Translations under genes and position numbers: made by a program | In this document: positions 55,189-57,268 of the stretch, in pieces | Layout of the letters: each line of letters starts with the position of its first letter | How positions within the stretch are numbered: position 1 is the stretch's first letter | The notes under the pieces: generated by a model | Told to the model about the DNA's origin: nothing | Databases searched by the model: none | Seen by the model: only the letters and a program-made list of their open reading frames with translations | Source: Gammaproteobacteria bacterium | Lineage (GTDB): Bacteria; Pseudomonadota; Gammaproteobacteria; S012-40 | DNA length: 64,000 nucleotides | Assembly: GCA_029881255.1 (NCBI GenBank) | Contig: JAOUMY010000006.1 | Span: 62,001 to 126,000, forward strand | Reading direction: 5' to 3'

Positions 55189-56337
55189 TCAAACACTCAT
55201 CATCGAGGTCAACGCCGTACCAAGTATGCGTGTTCCCATGATATTGAAATAGTCTACTTTCGCGATGGCATTAAACGCCGGAGGCATGGTAAACAACACA
55301 TCGTAACGTTCACCGGGAGCGACCACAAACTCATTACTGACTATCGTCCGCCCAAGGGGACGACCATCGGAGGAAACCACCTCAAAGTTAATATCACCGA
55401 AATTGATACTGGCAGGCAGATAACCGACATTGATAAGACGCACCAGAACACGTTCATCGGTAAATGCGTGAATTGCGCTGACGGGATCATCCATAAGAGG
55501 CGCGCCTTCTTTGCCATTGATGAGAAAATAATCCGGGCGATAGCGGACGGTATTGTTTCGATTGCTTGCCCGAAACTGATGCCAGGTACTATCCACGGTA
55601 TGCAGATGCCAGACGAACTCACGATCGAATTGCGGGCCTCCACTCCAGATGCTTTTCAAGTCTCCATCAGGTGGACGAACGATAATGCCTCCACTCATAC
55701 CCATTTCCATATGCAGAACTGTATCGACATGGCAGTGATACATATAGGTTCCTGCCTGAGGTGCGGTAAACACATAGGCAAACGGTGACGGAAATCTAGT
55801 TGAGCCAAATGGCGTGCCGGGCATAGGGAACGGCATCGCACCAGACACATAGCCTGAAGTCGTCGGTACGCCATCGTTGGCCTGATCTACATCAAGCCCG
55901 TGTAAATGTATGGTGTGTGGCGCCGCGCTAAATAACACCAATGAGACCAGTTGCCCTTCGACAACTTCCAGCAATGGTGCGGGAAAAACTCTGTCTCCAT
56001 TGAATCCACCACTCATGGTGGTATTAAAACTCCACACAACAAGCTGAGCGCCATCACTCATGGATACCGGCGGTGGATCCATATTGGTTGCGCGCAGGGA
56101 GATAGTGTTATTACTACCTGGGGTTAGTGACTGAAAACGCGGCGCAATATTCGCCTGTATATTGATCTCGTTTGCATTGATTTGTGCTTGGCCACGAAGA
56201 GCACGAGTGTTATTTTGCAAATGATTTGTTTCGCCCGATGGAAGCCACTCACTGCATGCACTGACAGTACTAACAAGCGCAGTAAGTCCGAGCAACTCAC
56301 GGCGTGTGATATGTTGTTTCGCTTCCTCGTCACTCAT
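55189..56337 (-). CDS. Two-domain multicopper oxidase subunit with copper ligands in domain 1 only
   Basis: The 382-residue exported protein has a twin-arginine signal (TRRELLGLTALVSTVSAC), possibly lipidated at the Cys. Domain 1 (~95-225) holds a complete first half of a multicopper site: H141-x2-H144-x-H146 and H201-C202-H203-x5-H209-x4-M214, which can supply type 1 copper plus four trinuclear His. Domain 2 (~235-382) keeps the cupredoxin outline (PDYFLING; RLINVGYLPASINFG) but the HxH positions are N312 and G314 and no further His pair follows. It is encoded 4 bases downstream of the partner gene, which has the opposite pattern. Confidence 0.88.
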   Translation of the reverse strand: MSDEEAKQHITRRELLGLTALVSTVSACSEWLPSGETNHLQNNTRALRGQAQINANEINIQANIAPRFQSLTPGSNNTISLRATNMDPPPVSMSDGAQLVVWSFNTTMSGGFNGDRVFPAPLLEVVEGQLVSLVLFSAAPHTIHLHGLDVDQANDGVPTTSGYVSGAMPFPMPGTPFGSTRFPSPFAYVFTAPQAGTYMYHCHVDTVLHMEMGMSGGIIVRPPDGDLKSIWSGGPQFDREFVWHLHTVDSTWHQFRASNRNNTVRYRPDYFLINGKEGAPLMDDPVSAIHAFTDERVLVRLINVGYLPASINFGDINFEVVSSDGRPLGRTIVSNEFVVAPGERYDVLFTMPPAFNAIAKVDYFNIMGTRILGTALTSMMSV

Positions 56338-56341
56338 ACCA

Positions 56342-57268
56342 TTAACTCGCGTTCATCATAATCAAACCACCACCGGGATACACACCATTATTCGTGACGG
56401 CGGGAACATAGTGCGAATGCAAGGGATACAACCCAGCCTGCTGGCCGACGGCGAGCAATGTGTCCACAACTTCCCCCGGCCGAACAGACACAGTGTCTTT
56501 TTCAATGATATCGCTTACCTGCGAACGGTTACGCGAAACAATACTGACGTGGTAACCATGAAAGTGCATCGGATAGTAAATCAAACCAGCGTTGATGAAC
56601 CGTATCGCAACATTCTCACCCAGGCCCAATGTTAGCTTTACGCCTTCTCCGCCCAGATACAGCAATCTGTTGACGAAGAAGTAATCCGGCTCATAGTTGA
56701 GAAAGTCATACGATAATCCCGAATCCACCGCATCATTCAAGCGTGAGTCTATTTCCTGCATCAGCAAAACATGCTCTCGTTGAAAAGGTGGTAGACCTTC
56801 AAAAAACGTATTTGAACCATCCTGTGCACGAACCACAACGGAACCTGAAAGGCCCATGGCGCGCCCAAGCGTGTCATTTATGGCATCAAAATACAGATAG
56901 CTTCCCGGCTGTACGGGCGCGCTAAACGAATAGACTTGGGACTGGCCTGGCTCGCACACTGTTGCATTATTTAACAAGCCGGGGATTTCCAGACTTACCG
57001 ACACCGCCAGGGTATTAGTGAGATTAATCGTGACGAGATCTCCACTCAAAGCCTCTATAGCAAGAGGGCTACCTGTGTTCTGATCGGTAAACTGCCAAAA
57101 TGCAATGACCTGTTTCAGACCGGCAACCGGGACTCGGACTACTCGTTCCGCCACCACGTCATATTGCACATTGGCCGCGCGAGCACGCTTAGGCCAGCTC
57201 AATAACCCTGGAATAGATACGCTGGCAGATGAGAGCAAACCTGCTTTTATAATACTGCGTCGGTGCAA
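56342..57268 (-). CDS. Two-domain multicopper oxidase subunit with copper ligands in domain 2 only
   Basis: The 308-residue protein has a Tat signal (HRRSIIKAGLLSSAS...RARAA). Its domain 1 aligns with that of the downstream gene but has lost the ligands: E94/P96 for HxH and F127-D128-A129, G135, L140 for the HCH...H...M set. Domain 2 has H235-x-H237 (YPMHFHGYH) and H284-x-H286 (YPLHSHY), the other four trinuclear His. The start is a TTG at 57268 placed right at the Tat signal, with AGGGG 8 bases upstream; no better start is in frame. Copper sites are complete only in combination with the product of the next gene. Confidence 0.88.
   Translation of the reverse strand: MHRRSIIKAGLLSSASVSIPGLLSWPKRARAANVQYDVVAERVVRVPVAGLKQVIAFWQFTDQNTGSPLAIEALSGDLVTINLTNTLAVSVSLEIPGLLNNATVCEPGQSQVYSFSAPVQPGSYLYFDAINDTLGRAMGLSGSVVVRAQDGSNTFFEGLPPFQREHVLLMQEIDSRLNDAVDSGLSYDFLNYEPDYFFVNRLLYLGGEGVKLTLGLGENVAIRFINAGLIYYPMHFHGYHVSIVSRNRSQVSDIIEKDTVSVRPGEVVDTLLAVGQQAGLYPLHSHYVPAVTNNGVYPGGGLIMMNAS

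Follow-up and report, generated by a model that had tools for sequence, protein, structure and literature searches.

Adjacent genes with reciprocal copper ligand sets point to a probable heteromeric two-domain multicopper oxidase in bacteria

Two adjacent genes in a gammaproteobacterial genome, here termed A and B, encode homologous two-domain cupredoxin proteins which divide between them the copper ligands of one multicopper oxidase. It is highly probable that the two products are the subunits of a two-domain multicopper oxidase that resembles type C and is an obligate heteromer, carrying a composite copper site at each interface between domain 2 of A and domain 1 of B (A.D2/B.D1). No account of a mixed-subunit multicopper oxidase of this kind was found in the open-access literature. 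The genes lie in a stretch of 64,000 nucleotides, referred to here as the window, for which a first-pass annotation had proposed an obligate heteromer arising through gene duplication and reciprocal loss. This proposal is supported by the adjacency and reciprocity of the genes in other genomes, their co-divergence, matched export signals, a predicted A-B structure and an independent repeat of the same split in Paenibacillus.

Copper ligands of the two proteins

Both open reading frames lie where the first-pass annotation had placed them, and on the strand it had given (Table 1). The short distance between them suggests, from gene arrangement, a single transcript with coupled translation. The two proteins share approximately 30% identity over 288 aligned positions, and both exceed the curated cut-offs of PF07732 and PF07731, with B also exceeding that of PF00394. 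No NCBIfam equivalog was matched by A or B, and an assignment to NirK was rejected, with TIGR02376 scores of 38.1 and 19.7 bits falling below the cut-off of 296.3.

Table 1. Features of the A-B gene pair in the window
Feature	Positions	Strand	Remarks
Gene A, two-domain cupredoxin protein	56342..57268	-	308 aa, TTG start
A, Tat-like signal	57176..57262	-	RRSII, hydrophobic core, A-x-A
A domain 1, F127-D128-A129 in place of His-Cys-His	56882..56890	-	D128 invariant in eight A sequences (alignment A3)
A domain 2, H235-x-H237, trinuclear ligands	56558..56566	-	invariant across A family
A domain 2, H284-x-H286, trinuclear ligands	56411..56419	-	invariant across A family
Gap of 4 nt, stop of A to ATG of B	56338..56341	-	
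Gene B, two-domain cupredoxin protein	55189..56337	-	382 aa
B, Tat-like lipoprotein signal	56254..56304	-	RRELL, hydrophobic core, VSA-C28 lipobox (lipobox by eye)
B domain 1, H141 (type 1) and H144-x-H146 (trinuclear)	55900..55917	-	
B domain 1, H201-C202-H203, H209 and M214	55696..55737	-	trinuclear His flank type 1 Cys; type 1 His and Met

Direct reading of the translations agreed with every ligand residue that the first-pass annotation had named for A and B. In B, all of the type 1 ligands (H141, C202, H209 and M214) and four trinuclear histidines occur in domain 1; domain 2 holds none, its four ligand sites reading N, G, K and D in a joint alignment. Domain 1 of A carries no copper ligands, with E94, P96, G135 and L140 at the sites other than the replaced His-Cys-His motif, and A has no type 1 site. 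The other four trinuclear histidines are found in domain 2 of A, and the reciprocal loss thus leaves one full set per pair, as had been claimed. L003, a complete two-domain relative encoded by this genome, shows the full 12 residues at the ligand columns of the joint alignment, which indicates that these columns represent the true ligand positions.

Considering that the type 1 site of B is full and that a simpler role is plausible for each protein alone, A and B might act separately, B carrying electrons as a type 1 blue copper protein and A serving as a copper-binding or scaffold protein, with no trinuclear cluster being formed. This is improbable, since the four extra histidines of B and the four of A correspond exactly to the eight trinuclear positions of the complete relatives, and separate action would not preserve both halves and their adjacency so strictly.

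Distribution, co-divergence and origins of the split

The same split was observed in approximately 70 adjacent pairs from Gammaproteobacteria, one alphaproteobacterium, Planctomycetota and Bacteroidota. The division of ligands is more regular than chance would produce. Among the aligned two-domain proteins, 61 were of the A type (four of four domain 2 histidines, at most two of eight domain 1 ligands) and 72 of the B type (eight of eight domain 1 ligands, at most two of four domain 2 histidines), with 39 single-gene relatives having 12 of 12 ligands in the joint alignment; these counts take in relatives of unequal closeness as well as the independent Paenibacillus pairs. The 12 ligands are kept across the pair, and no chain of either the A or the B clade holds them all. 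A B neighbour was present for every A with enough flanking sequence, and the expectation that adjacency would recur in other genomes, with losses that are always reciprocal, was borne out wherever the contig allows. Close matches to an A profile occurred in approximately 25 of 369 genomes sampled evenly from the class and in one of 398 sampled from the phylum at large, namely its own genome, indicating that A is uncommon although its occurrence spans many families. When named genomes were scanned with a B profile, 80 loci were obtained.

A second A-B pair occurs on contig 5 of the same genome, its A being 50% identical to that of the window. The same-strand genes preceding this pair (L149:6886-15397) encode a LolA-like lipoprotein carrier, two MacB/FtsX-type permeases and an ABC ATPase, in an operon-like arrangement. 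Two further pairs are carried on two plasmids of the cultured deep-sea alphaproteobacterium Indioceanicola profundi SCSIO 08040 (L154 and L155), where B has no evident signal and the A of L154 has a Tat signal. Protein accessions for this strain are WP_162937815.1 and WP_162937814.1. A Pfam tally of 63 neighbours, examined for clues to the substrate, gave nothing recurrent except cytochrome c in five; in L034-L037 a small single-haem (CxxCH) cytochrome c gene lies upstream of a B-A pair, its product being a possible electron partner. No natural A-B gene fusion was found, the long open reading frames in L014 and G327 being N-terminal extensions of A. An A with such an extension occurs in L014/L165 (G003) and in L159 (G327), with open frames of 929 and 1128 aa, and the extension in L014 and its relative L017 consists of carboxypeptidase-regulatory-like repeats, as judged by eye.

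With many ligands gone from each chain, one or both genes might be regarded as decaying pseudogenes or non-catalytic paralogues. This is the least probable of the readings considered, as the retained half-sites are invariant between proteins that are only 28-30% identical, reading frames are intact in several phyla, and in both the A tree and the B tree the window pair is sister to the other pair from this genome.

In a tree of 96 proteins, with A members from Proteobacteria, Planctomycetota and Bacteroidota, all A proteins form one clade and all B proteins another (SH-aLRT 97 and 96), and the inner structure of the two clades matches. The A and B trees have 14 of 20 splits in common, and comparison of the A and B distance matrices gave a mirror-tree r of 0.853, with none of 20,000 permutations being as high. 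Such long co-divergence argues against a reading in which A and B form separate homotrimers, one perhaps inactive, with their adjacency a relic of tandem duplication. All cited characterised two-domain oxidases are homotrimers (PMC13151041; PMC3192119), which speaks for this reading. Homomers of A or of B would nonetheless lack a complete trinuclear site at any interface, and separate homotrimers are very unlikely, only slightly less so than decay of the genes. The first-pass annotation had also held that full-ligand homologues occurring alone would count against a heteromer. Complete single-gene relatives do exist, yet the tree places them in separate lineages outside the A and B clades.

A comparable split has been found in Paenibacillus, where three pairs (L068, L071 and L077) display the same reciprocal loss in B-A order and nest inside a clade of complete single-gene Paenibacillus and Cohnella proteins. 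Forcing these pairs into the A or the B clade was rejected (p-AU 0.00097 and 0.0286), which indicates that the split arose at least twice. In other Paenibacillus and Cohnella species, complete single-gene relatives are fused to a further cupredoxin domain.

Export signals and predicted structure

Based on our own hydropathy and motif rules rather than a trained predictor, 44 of the 75 adjacent pairs listed, which include a few duplicates, have a Tat-type signal on A and none detectable on B, with Planctomycetota (L046) among them. Sec-type signals on both proteins were called in 11 pairs, Tat-type signals on both in five listed rows, including the window pair (listed twice), and a Tat signal paired with a Sec signal in one row (L044); most of the other rows reflect truncated ends, three-gene loci or erroneous calls by the rules. 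In the window pair, a Tat-like signal appears on both proteins and B looks like a lipoprotein (Table 1). TatC is encoded in the same genome. The signal-less B proteins start with a short, often Gly/Met-rich stretch, which in L015, L020, L085, L106 and their relatives ends in a conserved Cys (GGGCYxYP in many).

Export of one subunit carried by another through Tat, known as hitchhiking, has been established for HybOC and PaoABC (PMC4273604). As in the A/B pairs, a Tat signal is present on one subunit and its partner or partners have none; the enzymes themselves are unrelated, and the likeness lies in the export route rather than in the family. Taking into account the absence of a signal on B in most pairs, B should be exported bound to A, and this pattern constitutes the strongest indirect evidence that A and B bind before export. 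It also weighs against the two alternatives in which A and B have no contact: a missing B signal implies association, contrary to separate action as carrier and scaffold, and a signal-less B forming its own homotrimers would stay unexported.

In several pairs, A and B share a frame and only one stop codon separates them, and A-linker-B chains were derived from the natural DNA by reading the intervening stop as Gly. AlphaFold2 modelling of the L085 A-B chain with a paired 17-row alignment gave a pLDDT of 82.3 and a pTM of 0.86. The best Foldseek matches of this model were ceruloplasmin and factor V/VIII, with 9bxa (for comparison with MnxG/MnxEFG) also among the fold-search matches. Alignment of residues 1-645 of the model with human ceruloplasmin (4enz, chain 1-697) using VIA-align gave 508 aligned positions at 4.0 A (Z 24.5), the model superposing on four consecutive ceruloplasmin domains, and the B half gave a Z of 28.2 against 3g5w. 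The predicted A-B layout is that of neighbouring units of the ceruloplasmin ring, with A.D2 facing B.D1, an interface which the A-B linking order may bias. A chain in natural B-A order (L037), with the stop read through and a 14-row alignment, gave a model too poor to favour either interface (pLDDT 62.6, pTM 0.44).

Related oxidases, subunit composition and proposed mechanism

A and B have two cupredoxin domains per chain and align over their whole length with the nearest solved relatives, the type C oxidase 3g5w and mgLAC (2zwn). The best structural and sequence match is 3g5w, a blue copper oxidase from Nitrosomonas europaea, which likewise consists of two cupredoxin domains, both with HxH pairs and the first with the type 1 ligands. 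In contrast to A and B, which divide 12 ligands over two products, it is encoded by one gene, carries all 12 in one chain and is a homo-oligomer. B resembles type C enzymes in having type 1 ligands in domain 1 only, and A has no type 1 site at all; the four HxH motifs that type C enzymes hold in one chain are distributed as two in A and two in B, four being reached only by the pair. With two domains per chain, neither protein belongs with the six-domain oxidases such as ceruloplasmin and MnxG. In ceruloplasmin, the trinuclear cluster is kept at only one of three equivalent interfaces, and all of the domains reside in one polypeptide. Two kinds of subunit are also present in POXA3, a heterodimeric fungal laccase, but there the large subunit is a complete laccase and the small subunit donates no copper ligands.

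Published descriptions treat two-domain oxidases as homotrimers and divide them into types according to the location of their type 1 copper (PMC13151041; PMC3192119). In type B laccases (SLAC and CjMCO), the trinuclear cluster lies between domains of neighbouring subunits (PMC13151041), as proposed for A and B, although these enzymes have their type 1 copper in domain 2 and are homotrimers. In bacterial six-domain oxidases, a single trinuclear site is located at the junction of domains 2 and 3, and the type 1 copper belongs to domain 2 (PMC3600357). This site resembles A.D2-B.D1 in gene order, but it is formed within a single chain and its type 1 copper is in domain 2 and not in the domain that follows. 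MnxG requires partners (PMC5622069), although MnxE and MnxF are small proteins that are not oxidase-like, unlike A and B. No oxidase with a copper set shared between two homologous gene products was found described in the open-access literature, nor was a heteromeric or heterotrimeric multicopper oxidase with a split site, in a search covering open-access literature and few subscription journals. Earlier surveys discarded sequences without four copper regions (PMC3192119), which would account for this absence.

A and B would descend from a type C-like, homo-oligomeric two-domain oxidase that held its type 1 copper in domain 1 and formed its trinuclear cluster where domain 1 met domain 2 of the adjoining subunit. 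Following gene duplication, the copies would have lost opposite half-sites, and the emptied domains (domain 1 in A, domain 2 in B) would have persisted as structural parts. In the present-day enzyme, A and B would bind each other and hold copper in the composite site. Electrons from the substrate would be taken up by the type 1 copper of B (H141, C202, H209 and M214) and pass through the His-Cys-His motif to a trinuclear cluster of four histidines from B domain 1 and four from A domain 2, where O2 would be reduced to water. In many relatives, signal-less B would cross the membrane by Tat, folded and bound to A.

In several Gammaproteobacteria (L141-L146, L148 and L152), three such genes occur together. 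Of their products, tB has the complete domain 1 ligand set, tA has the HxH pairs in domain 2 (e.g., HPFHHHGEH and WHSH), and tC is a ligand-free third protein with neither half. In the 96-protein tree tA and tC are sister groups, indicating that duplication of A probably gave rise to the dead third subunit. The three-gene loci may have the same origin as the two-gene split. A third independent origin was considered for them and set aside, as A, tA and tC already lie on one side of a branch and the grouping of B with tB was not rejected (p-AU 0.21). Domains of the tC kind have also been detected in open frames of approximately 2700 aa (L152:6303-10001, G112:C22 and G223:C48), which may represent surface proteins that carry an inactive oxidase unit.

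These loci bear on the architecture of the A/B enzyme, for which a ring, as well as its size and subunit ratio, may be proposed by analogy with relatives. The heteromer could instead be a simple A-B dimer resembling the halves of a four-domain protein. A.D2 and B.D1 suffice for one trinuclear site, and no third subunit was found in the window's genome with a tC-protein profile, which matched A and B themselves only. The dimer is nevertheless unlikely, if a more serious possibility than any of the other alternatives, as the known two-domain relatives form rings of three units, and in the three-gene version a third subunit without ligands is present. Should A and B form a three-unit ring, it would contain three different interfaces, and the earlier description, with just an active and a dead interface type, is an oversimplification. 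Concerning the stoichiometry, A2B would fit the sisterhood of tC and tA, and AB2 would fit the A-B-B arrangement in a close relative (G048, loci L012 and L033), where A is followed by two B genes.

On a broader scale, we lean slightly towards the view that obligate heteromeric multicopper oxidases constitute an overlooked widespread class, in which homo-oligomeric two-domain enzymes repeatedly gave way to asymmetric mixed rings as half-sites were lost reciprocally, in the main A/B lineage and in Paenibacillus. The three-gene lineage would then be a B-A-C heterotrimer with one active and two dead interfaces, the same ring as ceruloplasmin in three chains, and this unfused counterpart would show the unfused stage of six-domain oxidase evolution. 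If so, current annotation misses a class of multi-subunit copper oxidases, and these proteins would provide living intermediates on the path by which two-domain rings evolved into six-domain proteins. They would also open the entrenchment of heteromers by neutral drift to study, with an independent repeat and complete single-gene relatives serving as controls.
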